A DNA stretch of 38,890 nucleotides from a virus: IMG/VR virus record IMGVR_UViG_3300042465_002416, positions 1-38,890 of that record; one strand, written 5' to 3'. A program made the position numbers and the translations under genes. This document shows positions 4,360 to 37,322 of the stretch, one piece after another. Numbering within the stretch: the first letter of the stretch is position 1; every line of letters starts with the position of its first letter. Under the pieces are notes generated by a model, which saw only the letters and a list, made by a program, of their open reading frames with translations, made no database searches and was not told where the DNA came from.

Positions 4360-4862
4360 CTAAAAAACTTGAAGATTTTTTTAATGTAGAAACTACAGAA
4401 TCAGATGCAGAGGATCAACTGCCTTTGACAGCCGAAAAAGTAGTTCCAATAGAAACAACTATCGCTCTAGTTCACGAACAACTGACCATAGCAGATAGAA
4501 TTGATCGAGCACTGCCTACCGTTAGAGGATTGGACGTAGAAGACAGAGATTTAGATGATTATGCAGAACGTGCCATGGAAAGTTTCGAGCGTTTAATGGA
4601 TCTTGGCTATAATATGGATGATAGAAATGCAGGTAAAGTATTTGAAGTAGCCAGTACCATGATGAATAATGCCATTTCTGCTAAAACAGCCAAGTTGGAC
4701 AAGAAGCTAAAGATGATCGATCTACAGTTAAAGGCAGCTAAACTAGCACAAACAGCCAAAACTGAAGATGATAATAGCCCACAAGGCCTGGGTGATTTAA
4801 CTACAGATCGCAATGCTATATTGAATCTAATCAGCCAGAACCTTAAAAACAAAGATAAATAA
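4356..4862 (+). CDS. gp16: Terminase small subunit (gp16-like)
   Basis: 168 residues, near T4 gp16 (164). Small terminase forms a ring that recognises concatemeric DNA and stimulates gp17 for packaging. Visible: an acidic N-terminal tail, a central helical segment reading DLDDYAERAMESFERLMDLG, and a KVFEVASTMMNNAISAKTAKLDKKLKMIDLQ helix pair matching the gp16 coiled-coil oligomerisation core. The ATG overlaps the gp4 stop (ATGA). In T4 gp16 directly precedes gp17; here two unrelated genes lie between them (4880-6543). Confidence 0.8.
   Translation: MTKKLEDFFNVETTESDAEDQLPLTAEKVVPIETTIALVHEQLTIADRIDRALPTVRGLDVEDRDLDDYAERAMESFERLMDLGYNMDDRNAGKVFEVASTMMNNAISAKTAKLDKKLKMIDLQLKAAKLAQTAKTEDDNSPQGLGDLTTDRNAILNLISQNLKNKDK
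4854..4861 (+). promoter_or_regulatory. Late-type promoter GATAAATA before 4880 gene
   Basis: GATAAATA lies 18 bases before the ATG at 4880 and overlaps the gp16 stop codon; GGAGAAA precedes the ATG as ribosome site. It matches the recurring late-type octamer of this window and would let the 4880-8075 group be transcribed separately from gp16. Confidence 0.5.
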
Positions 4863-4879
4863 AGTATCGGAGAAACGAA

Positions 4880-5509
4880 ATGCCTACTCTATTTGAATAC
4901 ATTGAACAACTAAAAGAAAAACACGAAGTGCGTGTTAAATTCGCCTGCGAAGTAACAGACGAAATGATGGACAAGATTGAGCGTCACTTGCAAAAGTATG
5001 ATGCTGAAAAAGTCTCAAGTCCAAGCAAAACAATTTTACAAGCTCGTCCATTAGACTTTCCTAACTTGGACATGGGTGAGATTTATATCATTGATTTTAC
5101 TAGCAACTTGCCAGTAAGTAATCACATGCTTAAACAAGAACTAGCAAAACTATTAAATGTCAGTGAAGGACTGGTCGTTGTTCGTGGTGTAAACGAAGAT
5201 CGTGAGATAGAACAAGAAGAAGAAAAGTTTCAAGATAAAAAAGAAGAATATAAAGTTAAGTTGGGCGCAGACTATGACAAAAGCGAAGGCAGTGATGTCA
5301 AAGCCGCAGAAGTATTCGGCGACAAGTTTAACGGTAGTTTATTAAAAGAACTTAAAAAGATCAGTGACAGCAAAAAGAAGGAAATTAAAACTCCAAAGAT
5401 TGTTAAAGATCCAGACGTTCCTGCAAGCACACCAGTGATTGGTGACAGCGCAACAACTAACAAAAAAAGTCCAGTGGCTAATCGCGGTCCAGTGATTGCT
5501 AAGAAATAA
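4880..5509 (+). CDS. Unknown protein between small and large terminase genes
   Basis: 209 residues. Residues 1-110 look like a compact alpha/beta domain: a helix ending in EKH, a strand VRVKFACEV, helix DEMMDKIERHLQKYD, then strands around IYIIDFTSNLPVSNHMLKQELAKLL and LVVVRGVNED. Residues 112-209 are a long Lys/Glu-rich, probably extended or coiled region with a basic end. There is no catalytic motif and no family recognised with confidence; proteins of this type occur as virion proteins in T4-like phages of aquatic bacteria (recollection, not checked). Late-type promoter and GGAG ribosome site upstream. Confidence 0.6.
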   Translation: MPTLFEYIEQLKEKHEVRVKFACEVTDEMMDKIERHLQKYDAEKVSSPSKTILQARPLDFPNLDMGEIYIIDFTSNLPVSNHMLKQELAKLLNVSEGLVVVRGVNEDREIEQEEEKFQDKKEEYKVKLGADYDKSEGSDVKAAEVFGDKFNGSLLKELKKISDSKKKEIKTPKIVKDPDVPASTPVIGDSATTNKKSPVANRGPVIAKK

Positions 5510-9376: not shown

Positions 9377-9380
9377 TTTT

Positions 9381-9416
9381 CAACAGCAATTCATCCAAAA
9401 GGAAAAATTGCTGTTG
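9381..9416 (+). repeat. 11-bp perfect inverted repeat abutting the gp32 -35 box
   Basis: CAACAGCAATT (9381-9391) and AATTGCTGTTG (9406-9416) are exact reverse complements around a 14-base loop. The right arm ends inside the -35 TTGACA (9414-9419). It may be a terminator-like hairpin for upstream transcripts (no T-tract follows) or an operator. Confidence 0.7.
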
Positions 9417-9443
9417 ACATAGCACTTAATAGAGTGTTATAAT
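9414..9443 (+). promoter_or_regulatory. Sigma70-type promoter for gp32
   Basis: TTGACA (9414-9419), 18-base spacer, TATAAT (9438-9443): both hexamers are consensus. Predicted RNA start is near 9450, at the base of the hairpin 9448-9469. Confidence 0.8.
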
Positions 9444-10540: not shown

Positions 10541-10597
10541 CCCGGGCCTCTGCGATAACTAACCGGTAAATGGTTATTGTATCGCCCGGGTTCTTCT
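10541..10597 (+). terminator. Large GC-rich hairpin terminator after gp32
   Basis: CCCGG at 10541 pairs with CCGGG at 10586-10590, GCGATA (10552-10557) with TATCGC (10579-10584), and TAACC (10559-10563) with GGTTA (10572-10576), around the loop GGTAAAT, followed by TTCTTCT. An asymmetric 6-base bulge (GCCTCT) sits on the left arm. Terminator function is inferred from position and the U-rich end. Confidence 0.65.
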
Positions 10598-10639
10598 ATG
10601 CAGAAGAAACGTTTATTATCACAAAGTAGAGAGTATCCA

Positions 10640-11422
10640 ATGACACTACCAGACGAAAGATATCGTGCTGTATTATGGGCAAGTAGATTCCTAGGCGAAG
10701 TTGCTCATGATAAGAAAAAGTATCCTAGAATTTCCAAAGAAGTTAGACGTGAGGCTTATAGCATACTGCGTCATTATCCCAGTGACTGGGATATGAAACG
10801 CATAGCGGATAAGGTACCCGAAGTCTTCCAAGAGAAAATGGAACCATTAACAAAAATGATTATGACTTATAATCAAGAACAAAAGGAAAATGAAATGAAA
10901 AATATACCAAATGTAACTTTTGCCTTTAGACAAGGCGATGAAGAACCTGAACAAGGTGGCTGTCCAATCGGTGGCGAGTTTGTTTTTAAAACAAGCAATG
11001 AGTTGTTTGCAAATAAACGTGTAGTAGTGTTTAGTCTCCCTGGAGCATTTACACCAACATGCAGTACATATCAACTGCCAGGATTTGAAGAACAATTCGA
11101 AGATTTCAAAGCGCAAGGCATTAATGAAATTTATTGTGTCAGCGTGAACGATGCGTTTGTTATGAACGAATGGGCCCGTGCCCTTAAAATTAAAAACGTT
11201 AAAGTTATTCCAGATGGCGCCGGCACGTTCACACAAGGTATGGACATGACAGTTGACATGAGTGCTATTGGTTTTGGCAAGCGCAGTCGTCGTTATGCGG
11301 CCATTATTGATAATGGTAACGTGGAACAAATGTTTGTAGAACCAGAATCGAGTGCCAGTGATCCTGATCCATATGGCGTTTCGAGTCCAGAAAACGTAAT
11401 GAAATATCTACAAGGAGTATAA
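10640..11422 (+). CDS. BPSL0761-like domain fused to a peroxiredoxin
   Basis: 260 residues if read from ATG 10640. Residues 1-75 (TLPDERYRAVLWASRFLGEV...RREAYSILRHYPSDWD) match the BPSL0761-type small bacterial proteins, whose N-terminus begins at this Met. Residues 86-260 are a full-length Prx5-like thiol peroxidase: PGAFTPTC with peroxidatic Cys (C56 counted from M10895), a VSVNDAFVMNEWA segment and a conserved Arg in RSRRYAAIIDNG. There is no stop between the two parts, but an AAGGA site (10883-10887) lies 7 bases before an in-frame ATG at 10895, so the peroxiredoxin may also be made alone. Role: reduction of peroxides, perhaps protecting the infected cell (inference). Ends 1 base before uvsX. 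Confidence 0.8.
   Translation: MTLPDERYRAVLWASRFLGEVAHDKKKYPRISKEVRREAYSILRHYPSDWDMKRIADKVPEVFQEKMEPLTKMIMTYNQEQKENEMKNIPNVTFAFRQGDEEPEQGGCPIGGEFVFKTSNELFANKRVVVFSLPGAFTPTCSTYQLPGFEEQFEDFKAQGINEIYCVSVNDAFVMNEWARALKIKNVKVIPDGAGTFTQGMDMTVDMSAIGFGKRSRRYAAIIDNGNVEQMFVEPESSASDPDPYGVSSPENVMKYLQGV
10883..10897 (+). promoter_or_regulatory. Internal ribosome site and in-frame start for the peroxiredoxin part
   Basis: AAGGA followed at 7 bases by ATG (10895-10897) in the same frame as the upstream domain. A TGA in another frame overlaps this ATG (ATGA at 10895-10898), exactly how an upstream gene would normally end if the frame were shifted by one base. Confidence 0.55.
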
Positions 11423-13214: not shown

Positions 13215-13243
13215 TTGACACAAATTGGATCCTTTGCTATAAT
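13215..13243 (+). promoter_or_regulatory. Consensus sigma70 promoter, copy 1 of a duplicated element
   Basis: TTGACA (13215-13220), 17-base spacer, TATAAT (13238-13243) with an extended -10 TGC. The preceding uvsY stop codon touches the -35 box. TTAATTGACACAAATTGG and GCTATAATACATACATAGA are identical to copy 2 at 13496. Confidence 0.85.
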
Positions 13244-13274: not shown

Positions 13275-13499
13275 ATGGAACTAGCAATCGGAACTAAAAT
13301 TGTTTATACAAGTGCCGCAGGTACCCGTAATGCAGAAGTAGTTGGTATCAAAATTACCCCTACAGCAAAGCCTGGATTTCTTAATACTTTTGTTACACTT
13401 TTAATACCCGTACAAACAGGTGTTAAATTTGAGAATAAAATTCAAATCTGTGCTGACAATGCCAGCTTAAAAATGTTCAAAGTAGCAGTCATTAATTGA
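13275..13499 (+). CDS. Unknown 74-residue protein with its own strong promoter
   Basis: 74 residues, predicted mainly beta strands (TKIVYTSAAG, NAEVVGIKIT, FVTLLIPVQTG, KIQICAD, LKMFKVAVI), suggesting a small SH3-like or OB-like barrel. There is a strong AAAAAGGAG ribosome site 7-8 bases before ATG and a consensus promoter immediately upstream, with another promoter directly after its stop, so it is a single-gene transcription unit. No family recognised. Confidence 0.65.
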   Translation: MELAIGTKIVYTSAAGTRNAEVVGIKITPTAKPGFLNTFVTLLIPVQTGVKFENKIQICADNASLKMFKVAVIN

Positions 13500-13524
13500 C
13501 ACAAATTGGTTTCAGTGCTATAAT
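13496..13524 (+). promoter_or_regulatory. Consensus sigma70 promoter, copy 2 of a duplicated element
   Basis: TTGACA (13496-13501), 17-base spacer, TATAAT (13519-13524), extended -10 TGC. Nearly identical to the promoter 281 bases upstream except for six central spacer bases (GTTTCA-type versus ATCCTT-type). Drives the AAA+ gene at 13558. Confidence 0.85.
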
Positions 13525-13557: not shown

Positions 13558-14634
13558 ATGGCTAATGTAACTATTTTTGCAGGCGAGTATCGCGGCGTTA
13601 AAGTTCGTAACCAAACATTCCGCTTGGTGTCAGACGTTAAGTCTGGTAGCAAAGGTATGTATGTAACAGTTCAAGATGACGGCACCCTGGGTTATCCTGG
13701 TAAAGCCATTCGTGTTAAAGTTAAAACAATGGAGGATATCACAGTGAGTGGTCAAACTATTGCTGACATGACAGATAGTCAGCGCAACAAAGCAAATAAA
13801 GACGACAATGTCTTTTCTTTAGTAACTACTAAAGAGACAGAAGTGTACACAGAAACAGACGAGCAAGCTATTGAGCGCATCCGTGAACGCTTTGATATCC
13901 TAGACCAAATGGCAGAAGGCACCACAACAGGTGCAGTTCGTGCTATGATTGTCAGCGGCCCTCCGGGCGTAGGTAAGAGCTACGGTGTTGAGAAGGTACT
14001 TGAGCAAGCCAGCTTGTTTGACAAAATGGCAAACCGCAAGAACCGTTTTGAAGTTGTCAAAGGTGCAATGTCAGCATTGGGTTTGTATGCCAAACTTTAC
14101 AAGTTCTCAGATGAAGGCAACGTTCTAGTGTTTGACGACTGTGACAGCATCTTGCTTGACGACTTGTCGTTGAACATTTTGAAAGCCGCACTAGACAGTT
14201 CTAAGAAACGTTATATTTCTTGGAACACTGACAGCAATATGTTGGGTCGTGAAGGCATTCCGGATCGTTTTGAATTTAAAGGTAGTGTGATTTTTATTAC
14301 TAACATTAAGTTTGAGCACGTTCGCAGTAAGAAATTGAAAGACCATTTGGATGCATTGGAAAGCCGTTGCCACTATTTGGACTTGACTATGGACACACAA
14401 CGTGACAAGTTCCTGCGTATTAAACAAATTGTGCGTGACGGCATGTTGGACAGTTATGATTTTGAAGAGAATGCCGCACAAGAAATCGTAGACTATATGT
14501 GGGAAATGAAAAGCCGTTTGCGTGAGTTGTCTTTGCGTACAGTTTTGAAGATTGCAGACCTGCGTAAAATGTCAGAACATAATTGGAAACGTCTTGCAGA
14601 GACAACAATTTTAAAACGTGCAGAGGTGTGCTAA
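13558..14634 (+). CDS. AAA+ ATPase of unknown target
   Basis: 358 residues with a CAGGAG ribosome site. Residues 1-60 form a small beta domain (EYRGVKVRNQTFRLVSDVK...PGKAIRVKVKTM). Residues 125-300 are an AAA+ core: Walker A GPPGVGKS (134-141), Walker B NVLVFDDCD (D193/D194), sensor-1 FITNI (N249), and an EGIPDRFEFKG stretch before sensor 1. A C-terminal helical lid carries RELSLRTVLKIADLRK. It is not the gp44 clamp-loader ATPase: no gp44-like SRC motif is seen and the N-terminal domain is foreign to it. Strong dedicated promoter in an early-type cluster; a remodelling or maturation role is possible but unproven. Confidence 0.8.
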   Translation: MANVTIFAGEYRGVKVRNQTFRLVSDVKSGSKGMYVTVQDDGTLGYPGKAIRVKVKTMEDITVSGQTIADMTDSQRNKANKDDNVFSLVTTKETEVYTETDEQAIERIRERFDILDQMAEGTTTGAVRAMIVSGPPGVGKSYGVEKVLEQASLFDKMANRKNRFEVVKGAMSALGLYAKLYKFSDEGNVLVFDDCDSILLDDLSLNILKAALDSSKKRYISWNTDSNMLGREGIPDRFEFKGSVIFITNIKFEHVRSKKLKDHLDALESRCHYLDLTMDTQRDKFLRIKQIVRDGMLDSYDFEENAAQEIVDYMWEMKSRLRELSLRTVLKIADLRKMSEHNWKRLAETTILKRAEVC

Positions 14635-14640
14635 ACTAAA

Positions 14641-14674
14641 CAATGCCTAGTTAATTGATGTTAACTAGGCATTG
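14641..14674 (+). repeat. 14-bp perfect palindrome embracing a -35 box
   Basis: CAATGCCTAGTTAA (14641-14654) and TTAACTAGGCATTG (14661-14674) are exact reverse complements. The 6-base loop TTGATG is itself the -35 hexamer of the following promoter and the right arm is its spacer. No T-tract follows, so an operator or a bifunctional cruciform/hairpin is more likely than a simple terminator. Confidence 0.8.
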
Positions 14675-14683
14675 TGCTATAAT
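14655..14683 (+). promoter_or_regulatory. Sigma70-type promoter for the S8 protease gene
   Basis: TTGATG (14655-14660), 17-base spacer, TATAAT (14678-14683) with extended -10 TGC. Predicted RNA start is near 14690, 22 bases before the ATG at 14712. Confidence 0.75.
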
Positions 14684-14711
14684 AACTTTTAAAACAACAA
14701 AGGGAATTCAA

Positions 14712-16799
14712 ATGAAATTCAAACCCACTCTCGTAGCAGTAGCAGTTTTGACATTGGCTGGAAGTGTGCAGGCTCAAACTCCTGCTCCACAGACTTATCT
14801 ATCTCCAACTGGAAAACGTTATGAAAGCATTGAACAATATCAGATTCAAACTGTATTAAACAGAGTTGGTGCCCCAGAAGCGTGGTCGCGTGGCTATACA
14901 GGTAAAGGAGTTAGCATAGCAATCATCGATAACGGATTTGACTTGGGAACATACGATTTAAAAGGGGCGGTTGGTAGCTATAAAAACTTTTATGTAGGTT
15001 CTATTAGTGCTGCCAACACTGGTTGGGGCGAGCATGGTACGGCAATGTCAAGTATTGCCGCAGGCAGATATGGTGGTGACGTAGGTACAGTAGGTGTTGC
15101 ATATGATGCGACCTTGCTACTTGCACAGGCAGGTCAGGGCGGCAGGATGCCTCAAATTGATGATGCCGCAGTTATTCGAGCATTAAACTGGGCTGGAGAA
15201 AATAAAGCAGTTGCAGTTAATATGAGCTTTAGTTCTGCCTTTAATGTAGATTACGTTAAAGGTACTAAACGGATTGGCAATACTGATTTTTATCAAGGTA
15301 GCGCAACATCTAGTGCGATGTATGGAAAAGTAAACACATTAAAAACATATTTTACATCAACTAATACAACTAGTGTTATTGTAGCCGCCGCTGGTAATCA
15401 AGGACTAGCGTATTCGGGCTATCCGGGTGCTTTTGCCACTGCTACAAATGACAAAGGTGAATTGTTGTTTGGTGGTCGTTGGTTGATTGTTGGTGCAGTT
15501 GACGCCAACAACAATATTGCTTCTTATAGTAATCGTGCAGGTAGTATCTGTACTAACGTGGTTGCAGGTGCATGTAAAGATCTATATAGTGTGAAAGATT
15601 TTTATGTTGTTGCTCCGGGAGGATCTTCACTAAAAGGTGACTTTGTCGCAGTAGCATATGATAAAAGCAAAGCGGCAGAAACTCTTGCCGGCGGTCTTGG
15701 TTCTGGTACAAGTCAAGCAACAGCGATTGTAACCGGCGGCATTGCAATTATTAAGCAAGCATGGCCACAGCTTAGTGCCGCACAGATTGTCCAGTTGGTT
15801 AAAACTACTGCCACTGACTTGGGTGCTAAAGGTGTAGATGAAGTTTATGGTTGGGGTATGGTTAATTTTGATAAAGCTACTCAGCCGCAGGGTTTGTTGA
15901 AGATTGCTAACTTTAAAGGATATGCATCTGCAACTCCGTTGTCATCCACAGGTGTTGCGTCAAGCGGTAGTGCTAGTCTTAAAACGAGTAGTGTGCTGAA
16001 AAATGTACAAGGCTTGGACAGTTATAATCGCAACTATACATTGGACATGACTCGGGTAGTTATTACTAATCCAGTGGCAACATATCGCAGTTCTAGTTCT
16101 TATTTGGCAATGAGTCCAGCAGGCTATAATGAAGTATCTACACCAGTAACTGAAAACTATAGCGTTAAGATGATGCAAAGTCAAACTGGTATTGCCAGTG
16201 AAGTTTCTTACAATGAACAAGGTGCTAGCTATAGTGTGCAGTTTGGTAGCATGACAGAGAAGTCGGGCTTCCTTGGTAACTATGGTACAGGTGCAATGGC
16301 ATTTGGTGATAGTTCTACTAGTTACTTACAACTTGGTACCGAACACAAGTTTGGTAGCGTAGCAGTATTTGGTAGTTACGGACTAGGTACTACTCGTGCA
16401 GGAAGTGTGCAAGACAGTATGATCCAACTTGGTAATCGTATTAGTAGTGACACATGGAGAATGGGTGTTGCTAAGAACAATGTCTTCCAAAATAAAGATG
16501 CTGTGAGCCTAAGTGTAGTTAGTCCTGTAAGTGTGCGAAATGGCTCGGCAACTGTTACAGGTGTAACTGGCTACGAGTTCACAGACAATGGTGATGGCGC
16601 AGATGCTCGGGCTATTGTTAGCACAGAGACTATCAACTTGCGAGCACAAGTTAAGCCCATGGATTTGGTATTAGGTTATACTGTAATTGGTAAAGGCTAC
16701 GACCGTGTAAACGTAAATGTTGCTAGACAGTTTAACGTAGGCGGTGTTGCAGGCAATACAGCTAACAGCATTGGTGTTATGGCAGTCAAGTCTTTCTAA
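14712..16799 (+). CDS. Exported subtilisin-like (S8) serine protease with barrel-like C-terminal domain
   Basis: 695 residues from ATG 14712 (AAAGGG ribosome site; an upstream in-frame ATG lies inside the promoter palindrome and is rejected). A signal peptide is clear: basic MKFK, hydrophobic core LVAVAVLTLAG, cleavage likely after SVQA (A21). The S8 domain (about 45-410) has the catalytic triad D73 (AIIDNGFD), H108 (GEHGTAMSS), S334 (GSGTSQAT) and oxyanion Asn N229 (AAAGNQG). After a Ser/Thr-rich linker (about 415-470) the last 220 residues are alternating beta strands ending in Phe (VMAVKSF), as in outer-membrane beta-barrels and autotransporters. It sits in a phage recombination cluster with its own promoter. 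Known autotransporter proteases are bacterial surface proteins; here a role at the host envelope or against competitors is inference. Confidence 0.88.
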   Translation: MKFKPTLVAVAVLTLAGSVQAQTPAPQTYLSPTGKRYESIEQYQIQTVLNRVGAPEAWSRGYTGKGVSIAIIDNGFDLGTYDLKGAVGSYKNFYVGSISAANTGWGEHGTAMSSIAAGRYGGDVGTVGVAYDATLLLAQAGQGGRMPQIDDAAVIRALNWAGENKAVAVNMSFSSAFNVDYVKGTKRIGNTDFYQGSATSSAMYGKVNTLKTYFTSTNTTSVIVAAAGNQGLAYSGYPGAFATATNDKGELLFGGRWLIVGAVDANNNIASYSNRAGSICTNVVAGACKDLYSVKDFYVVAPGGSSLKGDFVAVAYDKSKAAETLAGGLGSGTSQATAIVTGGIAIIKQAWPQLSAAQIVQLVKTTATDLGAKGVDEVYGWGMVNFDKATQPQGLLKIANFKGYASATPLSSTGVASSGSASLKTSSVLKNVQGLDSYNRNYTLDMTRVVITNPVATYRSSSSYLAMSPAGYNEVSTPVTENYSVKMMQSQTGIASEVSYNEQGASYSVQFGSMTEKSGFLGNYGTGAMAFGDSSTSYLQLGTEHKFGSVAVFGSYGLGTTRAGSVQDSMIQLGNRISSDTWRMGVAKNNVFQNKDAVSLSVVSPVSVRNGSATVTGVTGYEFTDNGDGADARAIVSTETINLRAQVKPMDLVLGYTVIGKGYDRVNVNVARQFNVGGVAGNTANSIGVMAVKSF

Positions 16800-16828
16800 T
16801 TGACAGCAATTAATTTTAATGTTATAAT
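16800..16828 (+). promoter_or_regulatory. Consensus sigma70 promoter for the ParB-fold gene
   Basis: TTGACA (16800-16805), 17-base spacer, TATAAT (16823-16828): perfect consensus, starting one base after the protease stop codon. Predicted RNA start is near 16835. Confidence 0.85.
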
Positions 16829-16832
16829 TACT

Positions 16833-16860
16833 GCATAGTGTAGAATAAGCTACGCTATGC
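16833..16860 (+). promoter_or_regulatory. 11-bp stem-loop at the 5' end of the predicted RNA
   Basis: GCATAGTGTAG (16833-16843) pairs with CTACGCTATGC (16850-16860) with one G-U pair and the 6-base loop AATAAG. Because transcription should start near 16835, the RNA would begin with this hairpin, as in the gp32 leader. Confidence 0.65.
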
Positions 16861-16866
16861 TTTATA

Positions 16867-16906
16867 GGTCGAGAATGACCGCAACCCTGGGCGAGTTTGC
16901 CCGCAA
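16867..16906 (+). repeat. Two tandem leader hairpins related by a compensatory change
   Basis: GGTC-GAGAAT-GACC (16867-16880) and GGGC-GAGTTT-GCCC (16889-16902) are each followed by GCAA. The 18-base units differ by a T to G change in the left arm matched by A to C in the right arm, preserving the pair, plus two loop changes. The ribosome site AAAAAGGA and the ATG at 16922 follow immediately. Confidence 0.65.
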
Positions 16907-16921
16907 AAAGGAAATTTACTT

Positions 16922-18067
16922 ATGACAACAATTACCCACGCTCAAACTATTAACGGGCGTTATCTAAAATCTACCAGCCATTTCGTTTCGTTACAACAAC
17001 GTCTTGCAGATGCGCTGAAATCTTCTCCAGTATTCGTAAACATGCTAACTGCAATGGTAGACGAGTACAAACGTCGACATGCCAACTGGGCAAAGTTTTC
17101 CGACATGAAACTTTGTGAAGCAATTCAAGTTCCGATGGACAAAATCCTAATTGATACTACAATGCAACGTAGTTTGAATCTCCGTCACGTCTTGAATATT
17201 CTACAGAACTTTAAAAGTAGTATGGTGATGGCAATTCAAGTGTATGTAGACGAAAACAAACCTGGTTATTATATTGCATGGGAGGGTCAACATACTGCTA
17301 TTGCTTTGCATATTATTCTAACAAAAGTATTTGGCGAGCAGACAGCTAACGCTATGATCCCAGTTGTGATTTACAATGTCAAACAGAAATTAGAAATTCG
17401 TCGTAACTTTATTTTGCTTAATGGCGATGCCAAAGAAGAATTAGACTTTATTGACAAGTATATCCAAATGGTATTTGGTGTTAAGATTGATAAGGCGGAT
17501 GACCAAGAATGGATTGACACAGCCCTTAAGAATGACTACTTTGCCGCCGCAGGATTGTTTGCCACACATAGTAAGTTCGGAGACGAAGACCAACCAGGCG
17601 CATTTACTTTGTTAGCTGATACTCTTATGAGCAAGAGCTTGAAGACCCGCAAGCATCCAGAAGTTACTCGTATGTTTGCACAGTACTGGAGTTTCTTAAA
17701 TCAACAACGTCCTGTAGAACCCAAGGAAGCTAGGCAGTTGTATGAGTACTTTAATTTGTGTTATGAGCAAAAGATCGTAGTTGATGATGCATACTTGTTG
17801 GACTTAGTAGCTTTTACTAAAGCTAACTTCGGAGCAGACTTTGGACCCAATAGTCCATTCTGGGATAAAGTTAAAATGTCGTACGAATCGTGGTACTCCA
17901 AGGCTAATCCAGAATCATTTGCAGAGTTTGGTTTGAAAGGCTTTACTACAGAAATGCGTACAGGTATTCCGTTTTTAATTGCACAACTTAAAAAGAGTAC
18001 TAAATTAAAAGTGCCCGCATTTACTCCTAACAATGGCTTTACAGTTAACAAAAAGGACTTGTGGTAA
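16922..18067 (+). CDS. ParB/sulfiredoxin-fold domain protein
   Basis: 381 residues. Residues 69-130 carry the ParB N-terminal pattern: IQVPMDKILIDTTMQRSLNLRHV (position-of-Arg box), then VMAIQVYVDEN, and YIAWEGQHTAIAL replacing the usual dGqHRaaAl motif; the Arg of that motif is Thr here. The rest (about 140-381) is largely helical and not recognised, with an FILLNGDAKEELDFIDKYIQ segment common in phage ParB-like nucleases. Proteins of this fold act as DNA-binding or nuclease domains or as nucleotide-dependent enzymes; which applies is open. It is preceded by a perfect promoter and an elaborately structured leader, so expression is probably controlled after transcription starts. Confidence 0.7.
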   Translation: MTTITHAQTINGRYLKSTSHFVSLQQRLADALKSSPVFVNMLTAMVDEYKRRHANWAKFSDMKLCEAIQVPMDKILIDTTMQRSLNLRHVLNILQNFKSSMVMAIQVYVDENKPGYYIAWEGQHTAIALHIILTKVFGEQTANAMIPVVIYNVKQKLEIRRNFILLNGDAKEELDFIDKYIQMVFGVKIDKADDQEWIDTALKNDYFAAAGLFATHSKFGDEDQPGAFTLLADTLMSKSLKTRKHPEVTRMFAQYWSFLNQQRPVEPKEARQLYEYFNLCYEQKIVVDDAYLLDLVAFTKANFGADFGPNSPFWDKVKMSYESWYSKANPESFAEFGLKGFTTEMRTGIPFLIAQLKKSTKLKVPAFTPNNGFTVNKKDLW

Positions 18068-18074
18068 TATAACT

Positions 18075-18521
18075 ATGTTTAGAGACCCTAACAAAGACAA
18101 ACTTAAGAGCCAAAGTATTCTTAAGGAACAATATAAATTACAATGTAAATGCAGATTGGAAGATTGCGACAATGATCTTACAATTTTTGATGGTCCGGGT
18201 AGTGATGGTTTCTGCCGCGAACATCAACTTCAACTTACAGACTACGAAGGCGGTATGGGAAAAGCAGATCGCCCACATACATTTTACAGAGGTTGGCTCT
18301 GCGAGAAGTGTGGATACGATCCAAGAGAAGACAGTCAGTTTGATGATATAGAAGATCCATTTCATAAACTTCGTTGTATGCGAGGAGTAATGCACGGGGA
18401 TCATTTGGAACGCAAAAGTGACGGCGGCGCAGATACCGCAGAGAACATCCAAACTCTATGTTGTAGATGCCATATGATTAAAACATACAAAGAAAAAGAT
18501 TACTTAAAGGGCAATAAATGA
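18075..18521 (+). CDS. HNH endonuclease with extra zinc-binding cysteines
   Basis: 148 residues from ATG 18075 (an upstream in-frame start would overlap the ParB-like gene). The C-terminal 50 residues are an HNH nuclease: H110 in MHGDHLERKSDGG, N124 in TAENIQTL, H133 in CCRCH, with zinc-type pairs CEKC (76-79) and CCRC (129-132). A second cysteine group C24, C26 and C31 with CREH (47-50) lies near the N-terminus. Free-standing HNH genes in T4-like phages are often homing endonucleases, but a role in DNA processing beside uvsW is also possible. Start is 7 bases after the previous stop with no Shine-Dalgarno; a TTAACA-17-TATAAC pair lies directly upstream. Followed by a terminator. Confidence 0.78.
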   Translation: MFRDPNKDKLKSQSILKEQYKLQCKCRLEDCDNDLTIFDGPGSDGFCREHQLQLTDYEGGMGKADRPHTFYRGWLCEKCGYDPREDSQFDDIEDPFHKLRCMRGVMHGDHLERKSDGGADTAENIQTLCCRCHMIKTYKEKDYLKGNK

Positions 18522-18528
18522 ACAAATT

Positions 18529-18552
18529 AAGCAACTGAAAGGTTGCTTTTTT
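18529..18552 (+). terminator. Rho-independent terminator after the HNH gene
   Basis: AAGCAAC (18529-18535), loop TGAAAG, GTTGCTT (18542-18548), running into six T residues (18547-18552). A classic intrinsic terminator 7 bases after the stop codon. Confidence 0.85.
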
Positions 18553-18572
18553 GTGACTGAATATGTTATACT
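18543..18572 (+). promoter_or_regulatory. Weak sigma70-like promoter overlapping the terminator arm
   Basis: TTGCTT (18543-18548), 18-base spacer, TATACT (18567-18572). The -35 lies in the terminator's right arm. The predicted start base 18579 is the A of the second ATG of uvsW, suggesting a leaderless mRNA. Confidence 0.4.
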
Positions 18573-18578
18573 ATGTCT

Positions 18579-20033
18579 ATGACATCTTGTACAATACATA
18601 TTAAAGACGAAGTTAACATTAAGATATCTGACTTAGTAACTGCTACTAGACGTAAACTAGAAAAAGAATTCAAGTACTTTCAGCCCTGGGCTTACCACAG
18701 TCCAGCATATAAGCTAGGACGCTGGGATGGTTGTGTTAGTTATTTTAGTCTAGGCGGTAGTACTTACTTTAATCTTCTAGATAGAATACTACCCATTCTA
18801 GTTGATGAAGGTTACAATATTGAAATTGATGACCAAAGAACTAATCATAACTTTCAATTCCGTGAGGTAACTGAAACAACACATGAACAAACTATTTGGC
18901 CCAAAGGACATGTCAATGAAGGACAACCAGTATTACTACGTGACTATCAAGTAGATGCTATTAACAAGTTCCTAAACAATTTACAATGTGTACAAGAGAT
19001 CAGTACTGGTGCCGGCAAAACTATTACAACAGCAACATTATCCGGAAGTGTGCAGGACTATGGTAGAACATTAATTATTGTTCCTAACAAAGACTTGGTC
19101 AAGCAGACATTAGAAGATTATGAACTATTGGGTCTTGATGTAGGTGTTTACTTTGGCGATAAGAAAGAACTGGGTAAGACACATACCATCTGCACATGGC
19201 AAAGTCTTAACGTATTAGAAAAACGTTTTAAAGACGGACTCAGTCCTTTAAGTCTAGAGGAGTTTGGTCAAGACTTGGTAGCAATTATTGTCGATGAAGT
19301 TCACCAAGCAAAAGCAGATGTACTTAAGGCATTGTTAAGCGGACCATTTGCTAATGTACCTATTCGTTGGGGATTGACAGGAACTATTCCTAAAGAAGAT
19401 TTTGAAAAAGTTGGATTAATTGCAACCTTAGGTCCTGTGGTAAATAAGATCGCTGCCAAGGATCTACAGGATCAAGGTGTGTTAGCTAACTGCACAGTTA
19501 ACGTCATTCAATTACAAGAGACAGCACAATACCAAACATATCAAGAAGAACTGACATTCTTAACGACAAATACTCGTCGCATAGATTTCATTGCAGAGTT
19601 CGTAAAAAGTCTTGCCTTGTCTGGAAACACATTAGTATTAGTAGATAGAATTAAAGCAGGTGAATTGCTCTGTGAAAGGATCACAGATAGTGTATTCGTC
19701 AGCGGCGCAATGAAAACAGGTGATAGAAAAGAACACTATGATGAAATTAAAGACAGCGATGGCAAGGTTATTGTGGCGACTTATGGTGTGGCCTCTGTGG
19801 GTATTAATATTCCTCGTATTTTTAATCTGGTTCTTTTGGAGCCCGGAAAGAGCTTTGTTCGCGTTATCCAAAGCATTGGACGAGGTATTAGAAAAGCTCA
19901 AGATAAGGACCATGTAGAGATTTGGGACTTGACATCAAGTGCAAAGTTTAGTAAGAAGCATCTTACTACAAGAAAGAAATACTATGAGGAAGCTGGCTAT
20001 CCTTATAAAATTGAGAAAGTAAAATACCTATGA
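18579..20033 (+). CDS. uvsW: UvsW recombination helicase
   Basis: 484 residues from ATG 18579 (an in-frame ATG at 18573 directly abuts the putative -10). SF2 helicase/translocase that unwinds branched DNA and helps switch from origin- to recombination-dependent replication. N-terminal domain ends with the UvsW-type YKLGRWDG (44-51, T4 has YGNWDG). Helicase motifs: Q-like RDYQVDAI, motif I STGAGKT (142-148), DEVH (239-242), motif III-like LTGT, and VI-type SIGRGIRK near residue 435. No Shine-Dalgarno is seen. The stop overlaps the next start (ATGA). Confidence 0.94.
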   Translation: MTSCTIHIKDEVNIKISDLVTATRRKLEKEFKYFQPWAYHSPAYKLGRWDGCVSYFSLGGSTYFNLLDRILPILVDEGYNIEIDDQRTNHNFQFREVTETTHEQTIWPKGHVNEGQPVLLRDYQVDAINKFLNNLQCVQEISTGAGKTITTATLSGSVQDYGRTLIIVPNKDLVKQTLEDYELLGLDVGVYFGDKKELGKTHTICTWQSLNVLEKRFKDGLSPLSLEEFGQDLVAIIVDEVHQAKADVLKALLSGPFANVPIRWGLTGTIPKEDFEKVGLIATLGPVVNKIAAKDLQDQGVLANCTVNVIQLQETAQYQTYQEELTFLTTNTRRIDFIAEFVKSLALSGNTLVLVDRIKAGELLCERITDSVFVSGAMKTGDRKEHYDEIKDSDGKVIVATYGVASVGINIPRIFNLVLLEPGKSFVRVIQSIGRGIRKAQDKDHVEIWDLTSSAKFSKKHLTTRKKYYEEAGYPYKIEKVKYL

Positions 20034-34338: not shown

Positions 34339-36672
34339 ATGACAACATCGGCCCGAGCCATCACTGTTATCAAGCGCAGTGGAGAAAAAGAAGAATTGAT
34401 GATTGAAAAATGGCAGGCACAGATTACTAAAATATGTTCTGGAATTGCTGATGTCAGTCAAAGTATGGTTGAAATCAAAGCACAGCCACAATTCTATGAT
34501 GGTATTACCACACAAGAAATTGATGAGATTACACTACGAGCCATTGTTAACCTCATTGATGTAGAAGCCAATCCGGATATCGGACACACAAATTATCAAT
34601 ACGTAGCAGGCAAGCAACGTCTAAGTATGCTACGGAAAGATGTCTATGGTAGTTATGAAGTACCACGCCTTTATGACATCGTTAAAAAGAATGTAGCAAC
34701 AGGCCTTTATACTAGTGAACTTCTTGATTGGTACACAGAAGAAGATTGGAACAAGATGAATGACATGCTTGACCACGAAAAGGACGAACAATATAGCTAT
34801 GCGGCTATTGAACAACTTATTGAAAAATACTTAGTAAAGAATCGTAGTACGAAAGAAACATATGAAACTCCTCAAATTAGATACATGGTCGCCGCCGCTA
34901 CTGTCTTTCATAAAGAAGAACCTAATGCGGCCCGTATGCGTTATATCAAAGAATACTACAACGCTGCCAGTGATGGGCTATTTACTCTTGCTACTCCTGT
35001 TCTTGCTGGGCTTGGTACTCCTACGAAACAATTTTCATCTTGCGTTCTTATTAGATCAGATGATGATTTGGATAGTATTTTCGCGTCTGGTGAAATGATG
35101 GCCAAGTATGCCAGCAAACGTGCTGGCATTGGTTTAGAGATTGGACGATTACGTCCTTTAGGAAGCCCTATTAGGGGCGGCGAAATCATGCACACAGGTA
35201 TGATTCCATTTTTAAAGAAATGGTTTGGAGATTTACGTTCATGTTCACAGGGAGGAATTCGCAATGCAAGTGCTACTATCTTTTATCCAATCTGGCATCA
35301 CCAGTTTGACGACCTTATTGTACTCAAGAACAACCAAGGAACAGAAGAAACCCGAGTCCGTCATATGGATTATGGGGTTGTGCTTAGTGCTCTATTCTGG
35401 AGACGATTCAAAAACAAAGAACAAATAACATTCTTTGATCCTAATGAAGTGCCTGATTTATACCAAGCATTTTATTCTAACACAAAACTATTTGAAGAGC
35501 TTTATGTTAAGTATGAAAATACTCCGGGCCTTCGTACAAAAACAATGTCAGCCGAAGAAGTATTCAAGTCTGGCATCTTAAAAGAACGCACAGATACAGG
35601 ACGTATCTACTTAGTGTTCATCGACAACGTGATGAATCAAGGACCATTTGATCCTGAGTATCACACCATTTACCAGAGTAATCTTTGCTGTGAAATACTT
35701 TTACCTACTAAGTCCTTTAAACGTCTGGATGACGATAGCGGTCGTATCGCACTTTGCACCTTGGGCTCAATCAATTGGGGTGCGTTCCGTAACCCAGAAG
35801 ACATGCGCCGTGCTTGCCGTATACTGCATCGTAGCCTCAACAATATTCTTGACTATCAAGACTTTCTTTCCATCCAGTCTAAACTATCCAACGACGAAAT
35901 CAGACCACTGGGAATCGGTATCACCAATCTCGCCTACTGGCACGCCAAGCGAAGCCTCAAGTACGGAGAACGAGACTCCTTGGCTGAAGTCAAGACGTGG
36001 ATGGAACATCAAGCCTACTACCTAACTGAAGCCAGTGTAGAACTTGCCAAAGAACGTGGCAAGTGCTTAGGCAGTGATCATACTCGTTATGGACAAGGTA
36101 CATTCCCGTGGGAACTACGTGCCAAAGGAGTGAACGAATTAACTGACTTTGCTCCGGAACTTGATTGGGAGACATTACGCAGTCAAATGAAGGAACACGG
36201 TGTTCGCAATGCTACACAAATGGCTGTAGCACCAGTTGAATCTAGTTCAGTTGTTATTAATAGTACAAATGGTATTGAAATGCCCATGTCGTTAATTAGT
36301 ACTAAAGAAAGTAAAGCAGGATCATTTACACAGGTTGTTCCTGAGTATCATAAACTAAAGAACAAGTATCAGTTAATGTGGGAACAAAAAGACTGTGACG
36401 GTTATTTAAAAACTGCCGCAGTTATTGCTGCCTACGTTGATCAAAGTATCAGTACCAACACATTCTACAATCCTGCTCACTTTGCAGATAGAAAAGTTCC
36501 TACAACGTTGATTGCCAAGAACCTGATGCAGAGTCATTACTGGGGATTAAAGACATTTTACTATAGTTTGATTAACAAAGCAGGCAGTAAAGCAGTTGCA
36601 GAAGATGCACCCGCTATGTTAGAACCTATAAACTTTGATGACGAAGAAGACTGTGAAAGTTGTAAACTATAA
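34339..36672 (+). CDS. nrdA: Ribonucleotide reductase large subunit (class Ia alpha, NrdA)
   Basis: 777 residues, normal for NrdA (about 760). Reduces ribonucleoside diphosphates to supply dNTPs for phage replication. N-terminal ATP-cone-like region (about 5-70, ITVIKRSGEKEELMIEKW). Active-site features: FSSCVLIRSDDDLDSI (redox Cys), NLCCEILLP with the catalytic Cys and Glu of the NxCxE motif, and a paired second redox Cys region. The C-terminal tail DEEDCESCKL carries the CxxC that exchanges electrons with thioredoxin or glutaredoxin. No intein. The stop overlaps the aldolase start by one base. Confidence 0.95.
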   Translation: MTTSARAITVIKRSGEKEELMIEKWQAQITKICSGIADVSQSMVEIKAQPQFYDGITTQEIDEITLRAIVNLIDVEANPDIGHTNYQYVAGKQRLSMLRKDVYGSYEVPRLYDIVKKNVATGLYTSELLDWYTEEDWNKMNDMLDHEKDEQYSYAAIEQLIEKYLVKNRSTKETYETPQIRYMVAAATVFHKEEPNAARMRYIKEYYNAASDGLFTLATPVLAGLGTPTKQFSSCVLIRSDDDLDSIFASGEMMAKYASKRAGIGLEIGRLRPLGSPIRGGEIMHTGMIPFLKKWFGDLRSCSQGGIRNASATIFYPIWHHQFDDLIVLKNNQGTEETRVRHMDYGVVLSALFWRRFKNKEQITFFDPNEVPDLYQAFYSNTKLFEELYVKYENTPGLRTKTMSAEEVFKSGILKERTDTGRIYLVFIDNVMNQGPFDPEYHTIYQSNLCCEILLPTKSFKRLDDDSGRIALCTLGSINWGAFRNPEDMRRACRILHRSLNNILDYQDFLSIQSKLSNDEIRPLGIGITNLAYWHAKRSLKYGERDSLAEVKTWMEHQAYYLTEASVELAKERGKCLGSDHTRYGQGTFPWELRAKGVNELTDFAPELDWETLRSQMKEHGVRNATQMAVAPVESSSVVINSTNGIEMPMSLISTKESKAGSFTQVVPEYHKLKNKYQLMWEQKDCDGYLKTAAVIAAYVDQSISTNTFYNPAHFADRKVPTTLIAKNLMQSHYWGLKTFYYSLINKAGSKAVAEDAPAMLEPINFDDEEDCESCKL

Positions 36673-37322
36673 TGTTAGAAACAATTTGTGAAGTTTTAGA
36701 AGACGCTTATAAGCGTAACTGGATTACCAGCCGTGATGGTAACGTCAGCATCCGTCACCATGATCGTGATCACTTTTACATCACACCTTCGGGTGTGCGT
36801 AAGCAGACTCTGCAACCAGATCAGTTTAAAAAGATGGGTATCGAGAAAGGTTACTGGAACCAACCTCCTCAAATTTACTATGCAAGCAAGGAATTAGAGT
36901 ACACTGATATTAGTGAAAAGTTAAAACCCAGCGGAGAACTTCCCTTGCACTTCGGCCTACAAAAAGAAATGGGTCAACACAGCAACGATGTGCGAGTAGT
37001 TGTACATGTTCATCCCACTTACTGTATTGCAGCCATGCACGCCGGCATAGATCTTAGTACTATCAGCGATGCATTTCCAGAACTCAATCGTTACACACGA
37101 GTAGCACCCAATGTAGGCGATGTGCCTCCTATCAGTCAAGAGCTTGCCGATCAGTGTCATAAGAATCTACAGTTAGATGATCTTGGTAATATTGCCTATG
37201 ATATTGTAGGTATCAAAGGTCATGGTGTTGTGGCCATTGATACAAGCCCGTGGCGGGCATACGAGCATATCGAACGATTAGAACATATTTGCCGGATAGT
37301 ACTGGCCAGCGGAAAATATTAA
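36672..37322 (+). CDS. Class II aldolase/adducin-family protein
   Basis: 216 residues, starting on the last base of the nrdA stop (TAATG). Zinc-dependent aldolases such as L-fuculose-phosphate or ribulose-phosphate epimerase relatives cleave or isomerise sugar phosphates. All family landmarks are seen: SRDGNVSIRH, ITPSGV, LKPSGELPLH, VVHVHPTYC with two zinc-type His, and GIKGHGVVAI with a further His. The third zinc His is within the last region. It sits inside the nrdA-nrdB operon, suggesting a role in sugar-phosphate or nucleotide precursor supply (inference). The exact substrate cannot be read. Confidence 0.88.
   Translation: MLETICEVLEDAYKRNWITSRDGNVSIRHHDRDHFYITPSGVRKQTLQPDQFKKMGIEKGYWNQPPQIYYASKELEYTDISEKLKPSGELPLHFGLQKEMGQHSNDVRVVVHVHPTYCIAAMHAGIDLSTISDAFPELNRYTRVAPNVGDVPPISQELADQCHKNLQLDDLGNIAYDIVGIKGHGVVAIDTSPWRAYEHIERLEHICRIVLASGKY

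Follow-up and report, generated by a model that had tools for sequence, protein, structure and literature searches.

The window analysed here, an IMG/VR virus fragment of 38,890 nucleotides (IMGVR_UViG_3300042465_002416), encodes a tail sheath, terminase, SSB, UvsX, UvsW, primase, DnaB helicase and ribonucleotide reductase, together with a gene for an S8 protease that carries an outer-membrane-protein (OMP)-like C-terminal domain (Table 1). In the phage lineage of the window this gene is flanked by an AAA-ATPase gene and uvsW, in the order TerL - ... - SSB - Prx - UvsX - ... - AAA - S8 - (variable slot) - UvsW; the one exception is contig L074, in which the S8 gene precedes the AAA gene. A preliminary description, made from the nucleotide sequence, had placed an intact gene in a recombination cluster. 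Both points hold: the frame runs uninterrupted through 695 codons, and it lies between the AAA-ATPase gene and uvsW.

Table 1. Features of the S8 protease locus, with positions counted from the first nucleotide of the window.
Feature	Position	Strand	Basis
AAA-ATPase gene (phrog_1250), fixed left neighbour of the S8 gene	13558..14634	+	PHROG/profile match, synteny
Perfect 15-bp inverted repeat with 6-nt loop, ACAATGCCTAGTTAA/TTAACTAGGCATTGT	14640..14675	+	repeat search, RNA fold
Sigma70-type promoter, TTGATG-17 bp-TATAAT	14655..14683	+	sequence; kept in most of the window's clade
S8 protease gene with OMP-like C-terminal domain, 695 aa, uninterrupted frame	14712..16799	+	ORF, Pfam, homologs
Predicted Sec signal peptide (residues 1-21) lacking a lipobox Cys; cleavage expected after VQA	14712..14774	+	sequence, conservation
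Peptidase_S8 domain, residues 64-382	14901..15857	+	Pfam, 129 bits
Catalytic codons	D73 14928-14930, H108 15033-15035, N229 15396-15398, S334 15711-15713	+	
Closely spaced Cys pair C280/C288	15549..15575	+	invariant in 51/51 homologs covering the position
Predicted 12-strand beta domain, residues 483-692, stopping 3 residues before C-terminal Phe695	16158..16787	+	AlphaFold2, Foldseek
Gene in the variable slot between S8 and uvsW, without Pfam or PHROG match	16922..18067	+	
HNH endonuclease, within the variable S8-uvsW slot	18033..18521	+	PF01844
UvsW-like helicase, constant right-hand limit of the S8 locus	18573..20033	+	

The slot between the S8 gene and uvsW (16800-18573 in the window) holds an HNH endonuclease gene; the matching slot was compared in L004, L007, L016, L065, L069, L070 and L076, and in some relatives it is occupied instead by D12/N6 DNA methyltransferase-like genes or by a gene for an Eco57I-like protein.

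The Pfam profile PF00082 is covered in its entirety by the match to the protein (E 2.9e-37). The catalytic triad consists of D73, H108 and S334, with N229 as the oxyanion Asn, and across 53 distinct aligned homologs every sequence that has the position carries the same residue (D 53/53, H 53/53, N 52/52, S 51/51); triad, fold and motifs are those of the S8 family by Pfam and alignment. By domain and triad the protein is an S8 subtilase, and it is predicted to be proteolytic. Among solved structures, the best match by sequence is to the passenger of Ssp, a Serratia subtilase autotransporter (8e7f; PMC9977779), with 87 bits versus about 50 for the runner-up. Upstream of the protease domain, the predicted signal peptide (MKFKPTLVAVAVLTLAGSVQA, with Q following the cleavage site) is of the Sec type, as assessed by eye without a trained predictor, and nearly all complete homologs begin likewise. 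The full triad and the clear Sec signal peptide described earlier are thus both recovered across the family. The two cysteines C280 and C288 probably form a small disulphide loop. Disulphide-bonded passengers often hinder autotransport (PMC3297439); a small loop of this kind would presumably be tolerated.

The C-terminal domain was modelled with AlphaFold2. A full-length prediction with 14 close homologs was poor because of too little alignment diversity (pLDDT 32) and was discarded; prediction of the C-terminal 317 residues with 40 sequences gave an all-beta model with 12 long meander strands (pLDDT 86.1, pTM 0.81). In Foldseek searches of the PDB, nearly all of the 50 best neighbours were outer-membrane proteins or BAM complexes, OmpT, Omp32, OprP, FadL, OmpG and BrkA being among them; no match reached E <= 0.001, and the TM-scores to solved barrels, mostly 0.2-0.4, are too low for the fold to be named an ordinary autotransporter barrel. 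Pfam, including PF03797, gave no convincing match for the domain, and none of 36 members matched PF03797 at E <= 1, while the Serratia autotransporter used as positive control did so at 215 bits. A profile comparison of the beta domain with the Ag43 and Serratia barrels also gave no match, and was uninformative because its positive control failed as well. Hydrophobicity alternates between the strand faces in the family profile, with only 17 of 5000 shuffles equally good. The window's own sequence alternates more weakly than two true autotransporters, and its single-sequence amphipathicity is not separated from that of shuffles (z 0.5); some divergent members reach z of about 3. Of the 45 homologs having the last column, 43 terminate in Phe, and the preceding residues are hydrophobic at -5, -7 and -9 and, in most homologs, polar at -3; in some divergent members, L157 among them, the final strand is a textbook OMP one, LGVKYNMRF.

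These data bear on whether the domain sits in the membrane at all. The protease might instead be secreted, with the beta domain serving as an accessory (binding or pro-) domain and the enzyme released onto extracellular matrix, nutrients or competing proteins; the missing PF03797 match, the low TM-scores and the weak strand alternation of the single sequence all lend themselves to that reading, against which stand the long meander strands with their nearly constant terminal Phe, the outer-membrane character of almost all Foldseek neighbours and the last strand of the L157-like members, and we consider it rather unlikely. On balance an outer-membrane barrel is likely, and probably a closed one. 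The preliminary description had proposed structure prediction as a check on its autotransporter-like C-terminus, and the outcome is 12 OMP-like strands in an all-beta domain ending in Phe; the beta-rich, Phe-terminated character is borne out and the likeness to an outer-membrane domain is retained, whereas membership of the PF03797 family finds no match by sequence.

Relatives of the protein were collected in five scans of viral contigs and are found on more than 50 distinct virus contigs from many samples, as full-length or end-truncated copies at 28-100% identity, on records of up to 285 kb. Each of the 14 records that were searched whole has a single S8 copy without internal stop codon. A second set of contigs, including L085, L093, L101, L146 and L154, has the S8 gene in different surroundings, so the gene is not confined to one phage lineage. 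We found no description of this phage S8 protease family in the literature. The C-terminal domain had no plasmid match and was not found in 289 genomes of one phylum, in a search run without a positive control; genome contigs were scanned once, with short peptide patterns that detect close relatives only. One close bacterial match, on a MAG contig labelled Verrucomicrobia (L020, RGES01000073.1), was rejected as evidence of a cellular origin: its S8 fragment lies at the contig end (~4690-5391), in about 700 bp that differ in base composition from the high-GC contig to which they are joined, and the contig is for this reason probably a chimera with phage sequence. The genome of L020 has no match to the C-terminal domain.

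S8 autotransporters are widespread in bacteria (PMC9289746), and it could be argued that the gene is a recently captured host gene carried as cargo without phage function, or an artefact of assembly or binning. An assembly chimera is already refuted by the number of virus contigs, the kept synteny and the single copy in each of the 14 records; the preliminary description, which had suggested a survey of related phages and had named an isolated chimera as a possible undoing of its interpretation, is answered here by a gene that recurs, conserved and in synteny, on many independent phage contigs. For cargo, broken copies would be expected in many phages and none was seen. The invariant triad, an omega of about 0.1 and the lack of C-terminal domain matches on plasmids and in the 289 genomes of the one phylum searched speak against both, and together we regard them as highly improbable.

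Directly upstream of the S8 gene is a sigma70-type promoter, and an inverted repeat overlaps it, spanning the -35 box. As RNA the repeat folds at -24.4 kcal/mol (z -5.7), and across 16 homologs its arms co-vary: 6 of the 15 pairs are changed on both sides with 93.7% of cells paired, against a mean of 3.2 such pairs in shuffles and 0-1 in slid controls, so that a hairpin or dyad is maintained. Other relatives have at the same place a G+C-rich hairpin with T residues behind it, resembling a terminator; in L068, L069, L071 and L076 the terminator-like hairpin is present upstream without a clear sigma70 promoter. The repeat may be the terminator of the AAA gene, an operator over the -35 box, or both; given the hairpins of the relatives, the simplest reading is an AAA-gene terminator joined to an S8-gene promoter. 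The claim of a private, regulated promoter is thereby narrowed. A consensus-like sigma70 site does lie directly upstream, but four other TTGAC-TATAAT promoters occur within the window (0.12 expected); similar sites precede several other genes, making the S8 promoter ordinary for this phage, and the overlapping repeat may simply end transcription of the upstream gene. A T4-late-type TATAAATA box was not found near the S8 gene.

A comparable arrangement is seen before the SSB gene, where a 17-nt inverted repeat (9380-9417) extends as far as the -35 box of a promoter of sigma70 type (9414-9443) and into it, resembling the terminator-promoter pair upstream of the S8 gene. Near-identical promoters (TTGACACAAATTGG...TGCTATAAT) also lie at 13215-13243 and 13496-13524, on either side of a gene for a 74-aa protein.

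The S8 gene is under strong purifying selection, with omega within allele classes of 0.05-0.15 in both halves of the protein, and it is exchanged between close relatives. In contigs L081 and L100 the products of all the neighbouring genes that were compared are 91-100% identical to those of the window (AAA 99%, UvsX 99%, o13275 100%, UvsW 98%), yet the S8 protein, taken from end to end, is only 48% identical; at the S8 ORF the identity of the DNA drops from about 97% to about 50%, and it is restored just past it. The difference between these contigs and the window at 14650-16800 thus has the form of a whole-gene allelic replacement in a near-identical backbone. A second pattern is seen in L004, L005, L010 and L018, whose C-terminal domain is 86-91% and whose passenger is 51-53% identical to that of the window, as in a passenger-only swap in which the C-terminal domain is retained; in the passenger-swap pairs that were profiled, identity returns around the catalytic-Ser helix. 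Phylogenetic trees group the window with L081 by the flanking genes, and L081 with L079 by the passengers. Flank and passenger data each reject the other's grouping (p-AU 3e-6 and 3e-66), for groups that had been picked after the identities were seen. Exchange of this kind would fit a changing target for the outer part of the protein and suggests a surface role; passenger swapping between near-identical phages lends indirect support to a role at the surface or in competition.

The subtilisin-like autotransporters (type Va, Group 15: Ssp, NalP, SphB1 and EprS) have been reviewed (PMC9289746), and the phage protein has in common with them a signal peptide, an S8A protease passenger, a C-terminal beta domain and a terminal Phe; the EprS model gives a partial, sub-threshold match to it. 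Unlike the members of that group it is encoded by a phage, measures only 695 aa, has no Cys for lipidation after the signal peptide, and has a C-terminal domain that PF03797 does not recognise and that is only weakly similar to solved barrels. It also differs in having no beta-helix stalk of ~200 aa, for which the short linker between the end of the S8 domain at residue 382 and the first long strand at 483 leaves no room. Among deposited phage proteins, A0A6J5TBB6 (UniProt; Peptidase S8/S53 domain protein, uncultured Caudovirales phage, 689 aa) is a member of the same phage family, with a C-terminal domain that superposes, in a comparison with viral models, at TM 0.92 and 39% identity; it is named as a peptidase only, and we met no account of its export, of a barrel or of passenger exchange. 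PHROG 3677 (protease) and Bacillus phage peptidases have the S8 catalytic domain in common with the window protein, but the match is limited to that part (~28% identity for the Bacillus phages) and the C-terminal domain is not shared. Of the named phages, the PA5oct-like Pseudomonas jumbo phages (PA5oct, MIJ3, Callisto) come closest, at 52% for TerL and 42% for the adjacent AAA protein, which points to Pseudomonadota as possible hosts; the S8 protein has no detectable relative in these three.

The layout of the protein, in which a predicted Sec signal peptide is followed by the S8 passenger, a short linker and a predicted 12-strand beta domain with a terminal Phe signature, resembles that of a subtilisin-type autotransporter, and a route of action can be proposed from it. 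A host-type sigma70 promoter, lying among the replication/recombination genes, would drive transcription of the gene, and the product would be exported through Sec to the periplasm, by analogy with the subtilisin-like autotransporters; the host BAM machinery would insert the beta domain into the outer membrane. The active subtilase would be displayed on the surface of the infected cell, or released, and would there most likely cleave proteins of the cell surface, for instance receptors or competing factors, thereby closing the cell to other phages or preventing re-adsorption of progeny. We lean, with slightly better than even confidence, towards a compact type V-like surface protease that remodels the infected-cell surface, in superinfection exclusion or receptor shaving. 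The earlier interpretation of the gene, as one for an exported S8 protease with an autotransporter-like C-terminus, is supported; the roles that it put forward (superinfection exclusion, receptor shaving, release) are still proposals.

The same surface-anchored protease could act later, weakening the outer membrane or cleaving receptors at lysis, freeing progeny and preventing their adsorption to debris. A surface-directed architecture would serve that purpose equally, and passenger diversification would suit adaptation to host surface types; the gene sits, however, among replication and recombination genes behind a sigma70-like promoter, with no late-type box nearby and no recognised lysis genes adjoining it, and we think a late role unlikely. 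Gene position and promoter favour expression before lysis, which is the probable timing for a protease that remodels the cell surface.

Where lytic phages alter the surface of an infected Gram-negative cell, the change is credited mainly to small blocking proteins. A conserved, catalytically intact and membrane-directed protease in widespread large uncultured phages would represent a different, enzymatic route. It is conceivable, though we advance this tentatively, that the autotransporter-like surface proteases of large phages form a class of their own, whose translocator lies outside the known family and whose passenger cassettes are exchanged, and that they serve as weapon or lock when phages compete; near-identical phages would then differ mainly in the protease displayed on the infected cell. 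The passenger-swap pattern makes a testable prediction, namely that phages with the same backbone and different alleles act on different surface targets.

Elsewhere in the window are a peroxiredoxin-like gene with an N-terminal extension (10577-11422) and a class II aldolase/adducin-like gene adjoining that for ribonucleotide reductase (36672-37322). A fatty acid desaturase gene (PF00487; 22699-23409, minus strand) is common to several relatives and is possibly an auxiliary gene for membrane remodelling.
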